DNA of 52,191 nucleotides from Methanobacteriaceae archaeon. Its GTDB lineage: Archaea; Methanobacteriota; Methanobacteria; Methanobacteriales; Methanobacteriaceae. This document shows, one piece after another, positions 26,299 to 50,071 of this stretch; within the stretch, counting starts at the first letter, position 1; every line of letters begins with the position of its first letter. The position numbers were made by a program, and so were the translations under genes. Location: contig JAUNXU010000004.1 of assembly GCA_030539615.1 (NCBI GenBank), positions 1 to 52,191 of the forward strand, in the 5' to 3' direction. The notes beneath the pieces were generated by a model. That model was not told the DNA's origin. It worked only from the letters and a program-made list of their open reading frames with translations, and did no database searches.

Positions 26299-27336
26299 AT
26301 GAAATACAAAAAAATAATAGCATTGTTATCTATTGGAATATTAATTCTTATTGCAATGATAATAATAGTTGGACCACAAAATATTGAATCAGTTGTTAAA
26401 AATGCGAATTTGTACTATGTTGCTTTTGCCATAATTTTACAATTTGTTATTATAGGCGTATGGACAATACGATGGAAAGTTATTATAAGAACATTAGGAA
26501 TATCAATTAAAAATATTAAACTTATTCCAATGATGTTTATTGGTTTAACAGTAAATAATATTACACCTAGTGGAAGAGGTGGAGGAGAACCTGTTCGAGC
26601 ATACATGCTTAGTAATGAAACAAATGCCCCTTTTCAAAAAACATTTGCAACAGTATTAGGAGATAAAACATTAGATACGTTACCATTTTTTGTTTTAGCA
26701 ATATTCTCAATTTTATACTTAATCTATTCTGTTCATTTAGATTCTGTAACATTAGGAATATTAATTTTAGCTCTAATAATATTTACATTAATTTGTATAT
26801 TCCTTATATACATATGTATAAATCAAAAAGTTGGAGTTAAAGTTGTTAAATGGATATTTAGACAATTAAATAGATTTGTAAAACGAGACTTAGATGAAAT
26901 TGAAAAAAAAGCAGTAAATGCTGTTTTAGAATTCCAGATGAGTGTAAAAGAACTTTTAAAAAATAAAAATATGGCTACAATAGCATTACCATTATCATTT
27001 TTAGTATGGTTTCTTGAGTTACTAAGAGTATATATAATTTTCTTAGCATTTGGAGTAACAGTACCATTTGGTATAATTGCAGCAGTATTTATTATATCTA
27101 CACTTATCGGTATGATACCTTTACTTCCCGGGGGAGTCGGAGCTATTGATGGAATGATGGTTATATTATATTCTGTAGCAGGAGTACCTGCAGCAATAAG
27201 TACTGCAGCAACATTAGTTGAAAGATTAATCTCTTTCTGGTTAGTATCAGCTTTAGGACTAACATTATTACCATTTGCAGGTAAAGATGTTCTTGATAAA
27301 ATAAATGGAAATATATTAGAAGAAGAAAAAGAATAA
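26299..27336 (+). CDS. Flippase-like membrane protein of the AglD/LPG-synthase TM family
   Basis: A 345-residue protein with about eight membrane helices. The family signatures GRGGGEPVRAYML, VLGDKTLDTLPFF and LLPGGVGAIDGMMVILYS with the TLVERLISFW segment mark the UPF0104/lysylphosphatidylglycerol-synthase-like transmembrane domain. Members move or transfer lipid-linked groups; AglD in haloarchaea takes part in N-glycosylation. The substrate is unknown here. The stop is 15 bases before the ftr start, so the two genes are likely co-transcribed. Confidence 0.85.
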   Translation: MKYKKIIALLSIGILILIAMIIIVGPQNIESVVKNANLYYVAFAIILQFVIIGVWTIRWKVIIRTLGISIKNIKLIPMMFIGLTVNNITPSGRGGGEPVRAYMLSNETNAPFQKTFATVLGDKTLDTLPFFVLAIFSILYLIYSVHLDSVTLGILILALIIFTLICIFLIYICINQKVGVKVVKWIFRQLNRFVKRDLDEIEKKAVNAVLEFQMSVKELLKNKNMATIALPLSFLVWFLELLRVYIIFLAFGVTVPFGIIAAVFIISTLIGMIPLLPGGVGAIDGMMVILYSVAGVPAAISTAATLVERLISFWLVSALGLTLLPFAGKDVLDKINGNILEEEKE

Positions 27337-27351
27337 AAAGAGGTAGTAAAT

Positions 27352-28248
27352 ACGAAAATAAATAACACCATAATAGACAATACATATGCAGAAGCATTTC
27401 CTGCAAAATTATCAGAAATATTAATAACAGCTGAAACAAAAGAATTAGCACTAATAGCAGCTCAAACTGCAACTGGATATGCAACATCATTTATAGGATG
27501 TCCAGCTGAAGCAGGAATAGATCAATTTATTCCAGAAAATGAAACACCCGACAATAGACCAGGTTATAGTATAATTATTTGTCAAACAACAACTAAAAAA
27601 TTAGAAAATCAATTATTAGAAAGAATAGGACAATGTATTCTTACTGCCCCTACAACAGCAGTATACAATTTATTACCTGAATCTGAAACACAAACAAACA
27701 CAGGATTTAAATTAAAATTCTTTGCTGATGGTTATGAAACCAAAGAAACAATAAATAATAGAACCATGTTTAAAATACCAATCATGTCTGGAGATTTCAT
27801 AATAGAAGAAAATATTGGAATTATAGATGCAATTGCTGGAGGTAACTTATTTATAGAAGCAAATACACAAAAACAAGCATTAAAAGGAGCACAAAATGCA
27901 ATAAATGCTATAAAAAAAGTACCCGGAGCAATAACCCCATTTCCAGGAGGAATAGTTGCATCTGGATCAAAAATAGGTTCTCAAAAATATAGTTTTATGA
28001 ATGCTACAACAAACCATCAATTTTGTCCAACTTTAAAAGATACAATAAATGATTCAAAATTAGGAAAAGATATTAATGGAATTTATGAAATAGTAATAAA
28101 TGCTAAAGACATGGAAACTATTAAAAAAGCGACAAAAGAAGCAATATTAAATGCAAGTAAAGTTGAAGGAGTTCAAATTATAAGTGCTGGAAACTATGGT
28201 GGAAAATTAGGAAAATATCATATACATTTAGAAGAATTATTTGAATAA
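27352..28248 (+). CDS. ftr: Formylmethanofuran--tetrahydromethanopterin formyltransferase with ACG as the only plausible start
   Basis: Ftr moves the formyl group from methanofuran to H4MPT in the CO2-reduction branch. Reading from 27352 gives 298 codons with no stop and matches Ftr throughout: DNTYAEAFPAKLSEILITA, GCPAEAGI, LERIGQCILTAPTTAVYN, FKLKFFADGYE, PITPFPGGIVASGSK-like and ISAGNYGGKLGKY at the end. No ATG, GTG or TTG exists in frame between the preceding stop (27334-27336) and codon 139. ACG at 27352-27354 falls exactly where the family's initiator Met aligns, seven bases after a GAGGT site. Either ACG initiates, or an ATG-to-ACG mutation has weakened the gene. Starting at the internal ATG (27766) would delete nearly half the enzyme. 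Confidence 0.9.
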   Translation, partial: TKINNTIIDNTYAEAFPAKLSEILITAETKELALIAAQTATGYATSFIGCPAEAGIDQFIPENETPDNRPGYSIIICQTTTKKLENQLLERIGQCILTAPTTAVYNLLPESETQTNTGFKLKFFADGYETKETINNRTMFKIPIMSGDFIIEENIGIIDAIAGGNLFIEANTQKQALKGAQNAINAIKKVPGAITPFPGGIVASGSKIGSQKYSFMNATTNHQFCPTLKDTINDSKLGKDINGIYEIVINAKDMETIKKATKEAILNASKVEGVQIISAGNYGGKLGKYHIHLEELFE

Positions 28249-28266: not shown

Positions 28267-29727
28267 ATGCAATATATAACTCCAATTGATATGAAAGTAA
28301 TTGATACAAATACAGCTAGTCAAGGATTACCAACAATATGTCTTATGGAAATTGCAGGAACAAAAATAAAACAATTAGTTGATACATATGAAAATATCAA
28401 CCATGTAACAATTTGTACTGGAAATGGTGGAAATGCTGGAGATGGATATGTTACAGCAAGACATATAATAAATGATACCAATAAAAATGTTCATATAATA
28501 CAATTAAAAGATCCAAACACTATCAAAAATCAGGACACAAAACAAAATTGGAAACTAATAAATGAGATTGAAAAAACTTCATCAAAACTAAAAATCACTA
28601 AAATAACTGATACTACACAACTTGAAAAAATAGAAACTGATTTAATTATAGATACTATATTTTCAACTGGAATTAAAGGAAAAATACGAGAACCTATCTC
28701 ACAAATCATAGATAATATAAATCAAACTAATATTCCTGTAATATCAATAGATGTTCCAACAGGAATTAATCCTTTAACAGGACAAATAGATCATAAAGCA
28801 ATAAAAGCTGATATAACAGTAACTATACACAAACCTAAAATTGGATTAAAAACAGCTCCACCAGAATATATTGGTAAAATACATAATATAACAATAGGAA
28901 TACCTAAAACTTCTGAAAGATACACAAATAAAGGAGATTTATTAAGAATACATAAACCTTCTTTAAATTCCCATAAAGGTGAAAATGGAAAAATTAGTAT
29001 AATTGGTGGAAATAAAGATTATGCTGGTGCATTATTTTATGCAGCAAAAGCTGCTCAAAAACAAGCTATAGATTTAACATTTATTTACACTCCTGAAAAA
29101 ACTGCACAAATACTTAAACAACAAACTCCTGAAAATATTATTACACCACTACCTGGAACTGTACTTAGTTCTAAACATTATCAACAAATAGAAGAAAAAA
29201 TAGAACAAACAGATGCAATATTAATTGGTTCTGGTTCAGGATTAAAAAATACAACAAAAGAATTATTTGATAAAATATTAAAAAACACAACAAAACCAGT
29301 GCTAATTGATGCAGATGCATTAAAACTTATAAATAAATCTTATTTAAATAAAAACATGGTGGTAACACCTCACACAAAAGAATATGAAATTTTATTTAAT
29401 ACAAAACTACCTGAATCACATCAAGATCGAATTAAAAATGTTCAAGAAAATGCTAAAAAATATAATACAACAATAGTACTTAAAGGATCAATTGATATAA
29501 TAGCAACACATAATCAAATAAAAGAAAATAAAACTGGAAATCCACAAATGTCAAAAGGTGGAACAGGAGATATGTTAGCAGGAATTATAACAGCTTTAAT
29601 TTCTAGAAAACATTCAATTTATGAAGCAAGTTATCTTGGAACATATTTATTAGGAATTGCAGGTGAAAATGCATTAAAAAAACAAGGATATAATTATACA
29701 CAACAAGATATTATCAATCAATTATAA
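28267..29727 (+). CDS. nnr: Bifunctional NAD(P)H-hydrate epimerase/dehydratase
   Basis: Repairs damaged hydrated NAD(P)H. Residues 1-210 are the YjeF-N epimerase domain (TICTGNGGNAGDGYVTARHI, ISIDVPTGINPLTGQ). Residues about 225-486 are the ADP-dependent dehydratase domain of ribokinase-like fold (GKISIIGGNKDYAGALFYAA, PVLIDADALKLIN, MVVTPHTKEYEILF, MSKGGTGDMLAGIITAL). Both active sites appear intact. It lies 18 bases after ftr. Confidence 0.95.
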   Translation: MQYITPIDMKVIDTNTASQGLPTICLMEIAGTKIKQLVDTYENINHVTICTGNGGNAGDGYVTARHIINDTNKNVHIIQLKDPNTIKNQDTKQNWKLINEIEKTSSKLKITKITDTTQLEKIETDLIIDTIFSTGIKGKIREPISQIIDNINQTNIPVISIDVPTGINPLTGQIDHKAIKADITVTIHKPKIGLKTAPPEYIGKIHNITIGIPKTSERYTNKGDLLRIHKPSLNSHKGENGKISIIGGNKDYAGALFYAAKAAQKQAIDLTFIYTPEKTAQILKQQTPENIITPLPGTVLSSKHYQQIEEKIEQTDAILIGSGSGLKNTTKELFDKILKNTTKPVLIDADALKLINKSYLNKNMVVTPHTKEYEILFNTKLPESHQDRIKNVQENAKKYNTTIVLKGSIDIIATHNQIKENKTGNPQMSKGGTGDMLAGIITALISRKHSIYEASYLGTYLLGIAGENALKKQGYNYTQQDIINQL

Positions 29728-30790: not shown

Positions 30791-31606
30791 ATGATAACTA
30801 ACACACAAAAAATACTAGAAGAAAATAATATAATTTTATCTAAAAGAAAAAGTCAACATTATTTAATAGATAATAACAAAATTCAACAAATAATAGATTA
30901 TTCTAATATTAAATCTTCAGATGTAATCCTTGAAATAGGAGCTGGTATTGGAACAATGACAATACCCCTTGCAAAAAAAGCAAAAAAAGTTATAGCAATA
31001 GAATCAGATAAAAAAATTGTTGAAATTTTAGAAGAAGAAATTAAAAAAGAATCATTAACAAACATTGAAATAATTAATGAGGATGCTCTTAAAATAGATT
31101 TTCCACCATTTAATAAAATTGTATCAAATCTTCCTTATCAAATTTCATCTCCAATAACATTTAAAATACTTAAATATGACTTTGAAGAAGCAATTCTTAT
31201 GTATCAAGAAGAATTTGCTAATCGTATGAATGCTTTGGCTAAATCTAGAAATTATTCTCGATTAAGTGCAGGATTATATTTTAGATGTACTACTAAACAA
31301 TTATTTAAAGTTTCTCCTAACTCATTTATACCTAAACCTAAAGTTAATAGTATGGTAATATCTTTAATTCCAAAAAAACATGATCTTCCAGAAATATATG
31401 ATGATATTATACGAGCATTATTCCAGCATAAGAATAAAAAAGTTAAAAAAGCATTAATTCAATCATGTCATGAACTAAATACAGATAAAAAAGTATTAAA
31501 AGAAAAACTAAGCAAAGTTAATAATCATTTGTTTGATGAAAAAGTTTTTATGGTTAGTCCTGAAGAAATATTAGAAATTACTCTAATTATGGAGAATTTA
31601 TTATGA
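30791..31606 (+). CDS. rsmA: 16S rRNA dimethyladenosine transferase RsmA/KsgA
   Basis: Dimethylates the two adjacent adenosines of the 3' hairpin of 16S rRNA. The 271-residue enzyme shows the N-terminal SQHYLIDNNKIQQI, SAM motif I (VILEIGAGIGTMTIPLA), the acidic ribose site (KKVIAIESD), motif IV NLPYQISSPI and the C-terminal helical domain (ALFQHKNKKVKKAL). Its stop overlaps the next gene's start (ATGA). Confidence 0.96.
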   Translation: MITNTQKILEENNIILSKRKSQHYLIDNNKIQQIIDYSNIKSSDVILEIGAGIGTMTIPLAKKAKKVIAIESDKKIVEILEEEIKKESLTNIEIINEDALKIDFPPFNKIVSNLPYQISSPITFKILKYDFEEAILMYQEEFANRMNALAKSRNYSRLSAGLYFRCTTKQLFKVSPNSFIPKPKVNSMVISLIPKKHDLPEIYDDIIRALFQHKNKKVKKALIQSCHELNTDKKVLKEKLSKVNNHLFDEKVFMVSPEEILEITLIMENLL

Positions 31607-48215: not shown

Positions 48216-49406
48216 ATGTTAAACAGTGATGTTCCCAAGTTAAGATTTAAAGAATTTGAAGATAAATGGGAAAATAAAAAACTTAAAAATATACTCAATA
48301 TTTCTAAAGAAAAATATAATCCTTTAAAAGAGGATGTTAATTTTAAATGTATTGAATTAGAACATTTATCCCAAAATACAGGAATATTAATAGGGTATTG
48401 TGCTGCTAATAAACAGAAAAGTATAAAAAATATTTTTAATGAAGGAAATATACTTTTTGGTAAATTACGACCTTATTTGAAAAAATTTTGGTTATCTAAT
48501 TTTAAAGGGGTTTGTTCATCAGAGATATGGGTTTTTGATACTAAAGAGAATAATTCTTTTATTTACTATCTAATTCAAACAGATAAATTTAATTTTATTG
48601 CCAATATATCTTCTGGTTCAAAAATGCCAAGATCAGATTGGAATTTCATGCAAAATATTAACTTTAACATTCCCTCCAAGATAGAACAGAAAAAAATAGC
48701 TAATTTTTTATCAAACTTTGATAAAAAAATAAATCTTTTGAATAAAAAACATGCAGAATATTTGAAATTTAAGAAGTTTTTGATGCAGAATTTGTTCACA
48801 CAGAAATTAAGATTTGCAGAATTCACTGAAGAATGGGGTAAATTTAAGATTAATGATTTATTTGTATCTAAAAAAGGAAAAGGTTTATCTAAAGAGTTAT
48901 TGTCTGATGATGGTGTAAATAAGTGTTTATTATATGGTGAACTTTATACTACTTATAATGAAATAATTAAAGAAGTTAAAAGTAAAACAGATAGTCAGCA
49001 AGGAGTATTATCTCAAGAAGAGGATATTTTAATTCCTTCTTCAACAACAACTAAGGGCATAGATTTAGTTACTGCTAGCGTTATTTTAGAAAATAATGTT
49101 CATTTGGGTGGAGATATAACTATTTTGAGAAAAAAAGAAAAGAATATAATTGATGAAAAGTTTTTTACTTATTATTTTTCTAATAACTTATTAAAACCAG
49201 TTGCAAAATTAACACAAGGAAGTACTATAATTCATTTGTACTGGAAGGATTTTAAAAAAATAAACACCCAAATTCCCAATTTGAATGAACAAAAAAAGAT
49301 AGCCAGTGTATTAATTTCTTTGGATGATAAAATAAATCTACTAGAAAAACAAATAACTAATATGGAAGACTTTAAAAAAGGATTATTGCAGCAAATGTTT
49401 ATTTAA
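48216..49406 (+). CDS. hsdS: Type I restriction-modification specificity subunit HsdS
   Basis: A 396-residue S subunit with two target-recognition domains (about 1-165 and 205-365) and two conserved helical spacers. Each half opens with a similar motif (VPKLRFKEFEDKWE and KLRFAEFTEEW) and ends with a helix (IANFLSNFDKKINLLNKKHAEYLKF and IASVLISLDDKINLLEKQITNM...FKKGLLQQMFI). It would choose the bipartite DNA sequence methylated by HsdM. No hsdM or hsdR is in the window, so it is an orphan or acts in trans. AGGATATGA lies before the ATG. Confidence 0.93.
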   Translation: MLNSDVPKLRFKEFEDKWENKKLKNILNISKEKYNPLKEDVNFKCIELEHLSQNTGILIGYCAANKQKSIKNIFNEGNILFGKLRPYLKKFWLSNFKGVCSSEIWVFDTKENNSFIYYLIQTDKFNFIANISSGSKMPRSDWNFMQNINFNIPSKIEQKKIANFLSNFDKKINLLNKKHAEYLKFKKFLMQNLFTQKLRFAEFTEEWGKFKINDLFVSKKGKGLSKELLSDDGVNKCLLYGELYTTYNEIIKEVKSKTDSQQGVLSQEEDILIPSSTTTKGIDLVTASVILENNVHLGGDITILRKKEKNIIDEKFFTYYFSNNLLKPVAKLTQGSTIIHLYWKDFKKINTQIPNLNEQKKIASVLISLDDKINLLEKQITNMEDFKKGLLQQMFI

Positions 49407-49462
49407 TTTTAATAAAGCATTTAAATAATCAATTAAATTATAAAATTTTAGGATATGATAAT

Positions 49463-50071
49463 ATGACAAATGAAAATGTTCCTAAGTTACGATTTAAAGA
49501 ATTCACTGGGGAATGGGAAACTGTTAAATTGGGTGAAATATCACAAATTACAGGTGGGGGGACCCCCTCAACAGATGTTCAGGAATATTGGGATGGAACG
49601 ATTAATTGGTATACTCCTTCTGAAATAGGTGAAGACAAATATGTGTCAGATAGTAATAGAAAAATTACTAAAAAAGGTTTAGATCATAGTTCAGCTAAAT
49701 TATTGCCAGAATATACTATACTTCTACCTACTCGTGCAACTATTGGTGAAATGAGTATAATTACTAAAGAATCAACTACAAATCAAGGTTTTCAATCAGT
49801 GATAGTCAATGAAAATTCTAATTTCGAATTTATTTATTATTTATTAAGTACACTCAAGAAAACTCTGATTAAAAATGCATCTGGTTCTACTTTTCTTGAA
49901 ATAAGTGGGAAAGAAATAAAAAAATTAAAAATTAAACTCCCTTCTCTTAAAGAACAAGAAAAAATTGCTAATTTCTTATCAAAAGTTGATAACAAAATAA
50001 GCATGATAAAAGAACAACTTACTAATAGGGAAGAATTCAAAAAAGGTCTCCTGCAGCAAATGTTTGTATGA
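49463..50071 (+). CDS. hsdS: Half-length HsdS (single target-recognition domain)
   Basis: A 202-residue protein corresponding to one half of an S subunit: VPKLRFKEFTGEWETVKLGE, the TRD beginning ITGGGTPSTDVQEYWDGTI, and the C-terminal helix IANFLSKVDNKISMIKEQLTN...FKKGLLQQMFV. Half-S proteins can dimerise to form a working specificity unit with a palindromic site. The upstream AGGATATGATAA and first codons resemble those of the gene before it, so the two arose by duplication or recombination, with different TRDs. Confidence 0.9.
   Translation: MTNENVPKLRFKEFTGEWETVKLGEISQITGGGTPSTDVQEYWDGTINWYTPSEIGEDKYVSDSNRKITKKGLDHSSAKLLPEYTILLPTRATIGEMSIITKESTTNQGFQSVIVNENSNFEFIYYLLSTLKKTLIKNASGSTFLEISGKEIKKLKIKLPSLKEQEKIANFLSKVDNKISMIKEQLTNREEFKKGLLQQMFV

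Follow-up and report, generated by a model that had tools for sequence, protein, structure and literature searches.

The ftr gene, which encodes formylmethanofuran:H4MPT formyltransferase (Ftr), lies between a gene for a flippase-like membrane protein and nnr (Table 1) in the window, that is, the whole stretch of 52,191 nucleotides that was analysed, which is contig 38 of a 139-contig MAG that is 94% complete. The flippase gene and ftr share one frame with a single TAA between them, and the gap between this TAA and an ACG at the expected start of ftr is 15 nt, being longer in many congeners. From that ACG, the frame stays open for 298 codons without stops or frameshifts and, as the preliminary description had stated, contains no ATG, GTG, or TTG before 27766, which is codon 139. 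A 7-nt spacer (AGTAAAT) separates the ACG from a Shine-Dalgarno (SD) motif. Elsewhere in the window, two consecutive HsdS-like restriction-specificity genes (48216-50071, plus strand) have no obvious HsdM or HsdR gene between them.

Table 1. Coordinates in the window of ftr, its neighbors, and the elements around its putative start.
Feature	Position	Strand	Basis or remark
Flippase-like membrane protein gene, 5′ of ftr	26299..27336	+	Same neighbor in congeners
Flippase stop TAA, in frame with ftr	27334-27336	+	Direct reading; bounds the ftr open frame
ftr open frame	27337-28248	+	Direct sequence reading; bounded 5′ by the flippase TAA
Shine-Dalgarno motif GAGGT	27340..27344	+	Direct reading, SD register analysis
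ACG, putative ftr start codon at the family initiator Met position	27352..27354	+	Direct reading, orthologue alignment
ftr, 298 codons plus stop	27352..28248	+	Profile searches, structure alignment
ATA, possible alternative near-cognate start, 2 codons 3′ of the ACG	27358..27360	+	Direct reading; placement less favorable (13-nt spacer)
First in-frame ATG of ftr	27766..27768	+	Start used if annotation is restricted to ATG/GTG/TTG
ftr stop codon	28246-28248	+	Direct reading
nnr (NAD(P)HX epimerase/dehydratase-like), 3′ of ftr	28267..29727	+	Conserved neighbor; gene order in congeners
KsgA/Dim1-like rRNA dimethyltransferase	30791-31606	+	2.5 kb 3′ of ftr

The product of this frame belongs to the Ftr family at the equivalog level: it scores 419.8 bits against TIGR03119 (cut-off 292.6; model positions 1-288 of 288), and both FTR domains, PF01913 (2-142 of 142) and PF02741 (1-149 of 149), are complete. 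Conservation had been suspected from the first residues onward and, in effect, crystallised Ftr proteins align from their residue 2 on the codon immediately after the ACG. Likewise, the start of an outgroup sequence, MKINGVEIKDTYAEAF, matches ACG-KINNTIIDNTYAEAF codon for codon. No ATG, GTG, or TTG in the frame is compatible with this conserved N-terminus; what stands at the aligned initiator is a near-cognate codon with an SD in register. Of the orthologues whose start could be read, 19 come from Methanosphaera and 72 from elsewhere, the whole set being drawn from the family and two more distant archaea; the aligned initiator is ATG in 91 of 91, which bears out the view that the ACG occupies the family's initiator position, seven bases past the GAGGT. 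Compared across Methanosphaera, codon 1 is ATG in all 19 readable copies and ACG is confined to the window genome. One further ftr copy, truncated where its contig ends, lies outside the 91; the ACG is unique among the 92 sequences in all. A close parallel to the window arrangement is found in one congener (G001), which has GAGGT-AATACA-ATG.

The flippase gene lies 5′ and nnr 3′ of ftr at each of the 19 loci compared from congeners, and this conserved order marks the window ftr as a vertical orthologue. One congener MAG (G005) carries two ftr copies (L002 and L021), both in the flippase-ftr-nnr order, which contamination (4%) or strain mixing may explain. The window genome also has a second ftr paralogue, 39% identical and started with ATG, on contig 125 (locus L024). 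In the Ftr tree, the window sequence forms a long branch that groups with Methanosphaera sequences, and its nearest relatives reach only about 68% Ftr identity. M. stadtmanae is a cultured species; since its Ftr is only 63% identical to that of the window, the earlier assignment to it was wrong, although the genus fits. On these comparisons, the source is a divergent Methanosphaera MAG other than M. stadtmanae, and 19 congeners were searched.

In a 318-kb sample of the window genome, ACG makes up 0.04-0.05% of codons. An SD match of at least 5 nt in register accompanies none of the 23 internal ACGs, as compared with 3.1% of internal codons and 35% of ATG starts. Consequently, a chance threonine codon at the ftr start is unlikely. 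Masking of the start by mRNA structure was rejected, as the surrounding leader is almost unstructured (-0.9 kcal/mol over 81 nt). As had been foreseen, gene calling that allows only ATG, GTG, and TTG would shorten ftr, placing its start at 27766.

The same 318 kb were scanned for strongly coding ORFs without a canonical start for at least 50 codons. The scan flagged ftr together with several other genes, these having an SD and an ATT at the expected place: RNase Z (AGGAGGGGAATA-ATT), methanogenesis marker 2 (GAGGTTTTA-ATT), the tetraether lipid synthase Tes (GGAGGATTAAA-ATT), and an adhesin with a signal peptide (GGAGGTCATAAA-ATT), with a SWIM-domain protein as a possible further case. The NCBIfam models for RNase Z and marker 2 start directly after the ATT. 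No other ACG start was found in this sample, the remaining start-less genes having ATT. A 400-kb control from M. smithii had 338 coding ORFs; none of the four frames that the scan picked out there is convincing, and conserved sequence 5′ of the first canonical codon was seen in none of 76 orthologue-tested genes. Some flagged frames were left out of the counts (L132, L133, and L125 of G000; L225, L229, L216, and L220 of M. stadtmanae; L236, L237, and L241 of M. smithii); these, some of them adhesin-like, are likely fragments, shadow frames, or non-coding upstream stretches, or are unassigned.

Starts of this type are found across the genus. For instance, nucS begins with ATT (17) or ATA (3) in 20 of 20 Methanosphaera (L291-L310), as against 17 ATG and 3 TTG in 20 other Methanobacteriaceae; for two of the 20 (G000 and G001), the start was assigned by visual inspection, two codons 5′ of the match point. 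In most Methanosphaera species, the first ATG of nucS comes only at codon 27. In M. stadtmanae, where that ATG is the next canonical codon, an in-frame TAA immediately 5′ of the ATT makes an upstream canonical start impossible. Seven or eight of the nucS sequences have a GTG or TTG three codons 5′ of the ATT, inside or beside the SD, and in those species the gene may start there. Similarly, RNase Z starts with ATT or ATA in 16 of 17 Methanosphaera and with TTG in one (L136-L152), there being two adjacent start candidates, both non-canonical. In G003 and G005, a TAA stands immediately before the ATT of this gene, and in Methanobrevibacter, the genus of M. smithii, its start is ATG in 20 of 20. 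For both nucS and RNase Z, the ATT/ATA type is fixed in several independent genomes.

In hisH, tes, and marker 2, the start alternates among congeners between TTG, GTG, or ATG on the one hand and ATT or ATA on the other. HisH has ATT in about 14 of 19 sequences and TTG or GTG in 5 (L251-L269), and Tes has ATT or ATA in most congeners and ATG or TTG in a few (L271-L288). Marker 2 has TTG, GTG, or ATG just 5′ of DFNEI in most congeners (L156-L175), with ATT in the window genome and no canonical codon in G013. Two purE genes, those of G003 (L107, 14533-15579) and G008 (L112, 2492-3544), seemingly start from an ATT that lies 5′ of the first ATG; the start region in G003 reads ATT AAA ACT AAA GTT ATG.

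Because ATT starts also occur in single-contig assemblies, the pattern is not an artefact of fragmented MAGs; one such single-contig genome in the comparison set is presumably that of M. stadtmanae DSM 3091. Fisher tests on the start counts are extreme but take no account of common descent, and for each gene a single change on the stem branch could be enough. Resting on many independent genomes, the use of AUU and AUA starts in fixed genes of Methanosphaera is quite probable, and it is better supported than the ACG start of ftr. We hold with the same good confidence that start-codon selection in Methanosphaera is relaxed, so that AUU or AUA would serve for the translation of nucS and RNase Z in practically every species and of hisH, tes, marker 2, and purE in part of them, and ACG for that of ftr in the window genome. 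As to ftr by itself, the reading that we favor, with fair rather than high confidence, is that the ACG at 27352 genuinely serves as a start codon, probably a weak one, for a functional Ftr of full length.

Of the alternatives, the most serious is a base or assembly error in the MAG consensus, the organism having ATG at 27352. The codon is one base off ATG, has no counterpart among the sequences compared, and is known from a single MAG, so that fixation across several independent genomes is not seen for it. Nevertheless, about 22 window genes with orthologues include no frameshift or broken gene. Moreover, errors would scatter over all start-codon changes, whereas the remaining start-less genes of the sample share an SD and ATT; congener genomes that were sequenced independently, including single-contig ones, repeat this ATT pattern. 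On this evidence, an error is unlikely.

Somewhat less probable is a recent loss of the start, by which ftr would be turning into a pseudogene or making almost no Ftr, either because a methanol-reducing methanogen can do without the step or because the paralogue takes it over. A relaxed need for Ftr had also been the preliminary description's own explanation of the ACG. Its premise has some ground, as Methanosphaera lacks molybdopterin biosynthesis (PMC6120340), with which our search agrees, no MoaA scoring above the cut-off in any of 20 genomes. The intact, ATG-started paralogue means, in addition, that loss of the ACG-started copy might be survivable. Furthermore, 4 of 89 residues that are invariant in 32 other Ftr sequences are changed in the window Ftr, the most in any sequence compared, which may be read, on a long branch, as a mild warning sign. 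Against this, the frame is intact, and relaxed selection was tested for and not seen. The ratio of window-to-congener divergence to divergence among congeners, calculated for genes that have an orthologue in three or more of the four congeners used, is 1.45 for ftr versus a median of 1.42 over 20 window genes, so that its divergence rate matches that of its neighbors. Formylmethanofuran dehydrogenase genes are kept in the genus, FwdB/FmdB is retained in the window genome, and an intact ATG-started ftr is present in 18 congeners. The proposed relaxed need is, therefore, unsupported, and the gene is probably not decaying. Any relaxed requirement for Ftr would be common to the genus and thus cannot explain one species alone, and a cause specific to ftr is unnecessary when nucS, RNase Z, hisH, and tes, conserved genes unrelated to it, have non-canonical starts as well.

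Initiation of ftr at some other nearby non-canonical codon, such as the ATA at 27358, is improbable. Non-canonical starts in Methanosphaera are usually ATA or ATT, but this ATA has a 13-nt spacer to the SD and lies within the conserved N-terminus, two codons in, and the ACG fits the family start exactly. Least credible is that nothing initiates at the 5′ end of ftr, with either readthrough of the single in-phase TAA yielding a flippase fusion or only a 160-residue C-terminal part being made from the ATG at 27766, since congeners have separate flippase and ftr genes, the latter with its own ATG, and the short product would lack nearly all of the FTR N-terminal domain, which is a conserved stretch with 92 identical residues among 136 aligned.

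If the ACG is indeed the start, the ancestral ATG of ftr would have become ACG by one T-to-C transition. The initiator tRNA might then read the ACG by two-base pairing, the 30S subunit being positioned by the GAGGU SD. Initiation would take place in a nearly unstructured leader, 15 nt past the flippase stop, and translational coupling possibly helps. Such a codon may be tolerable because Methanosphaera already starts conserved genes non-canonically, mostly from ATT or ATA. Initiation at ACG, ATT, and ATA, the weakness of the ACG, and one common tolerance behind all of them are what we infer from sequence comparison. The simplest account that this suggests is a permissive recognition of starts in Methanosphaera, with the SD giving the position. 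More speculatively, weak starts may have been selected to hold nucleases low.

Neither aIF1 nor the KsgA-like gene, the two candidates looked at, offers a cause for relaxed start selection. Loss or change of aIF1 was rejected: the factor is intact and ordinary where found, close to the solved archaeal aIF1 4mo0, and the five of 20 genomes that gave no match are mostly incomplete MAGs. Bacteria that have lost KsgA/Dim1 initiate more often at non-AUG codons, and the proteins up-regulated in deletion strains of E. coli and Haloferax are enriched for products of non-AUG genes (PMC7897474). The presence of a KsgA-like gene in the window counts against its loss as the cause.

Fixed near-cognate starts are known from Listeria, where infC keeps ATT, rnhC keeps ATC, and rsbW has ATA or ATT, and where changes from ATG to ATA or ATT alter translation (PMC13068326). 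The likeness lies in conserved genes that keep ATT or ATC starts across strains. Nevertheless, Listeria is bacterial and the starts concern six of 2265 conserved genes (PMC13068326), whereas Methanosphaera is an archaeal genus in which a nuclease pair (nucS and RNase Z) and histidine and lipid genes are affected, in addition to an ACG. The same T-to-C transition as proposed for ftr is found in the start codon of the BCG dodecin, where the native protein still resembles the full-length form in its behavior (PMC8044443). However, that gene is bacterial and has a fallback GTG seven codons downstream, while ftr has no canonical codon for 138 codons. For archaea, part of a review of initiation names AUG, GUG, and UUG only, and the initiation described in that part resembles that of ftr in being SD-led and in using an archaeal 30S system (PMC7531240). 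According to a review of archaeal recoding, non-canonical translation in archaea had been demonstrated solely for elongation and termination (PMC8211752). The literature searched, which covers few subscription papers, held no report on Methanosphaera start codons.

If true, these observations would amount to lineage-wide, evolutionarily fixed non-canonical initiation in archaea, and the AUU and AUA starts of Methanosphaera would have escaped notice because ATG, GTG, and TTG are the only starts that gene callers accept. Existing annotations of the genus, therefore, probably hold truncated or missing N-termini for conserved enzymes. In this way, one odd codon in ftr leads to a genus-wide question, namely how the archaeal initiation system selects its starts, and to a further one, what led to the loss of ATG from the genes of a nuclease and a tRNA-processing enzyme at the base of the genus.
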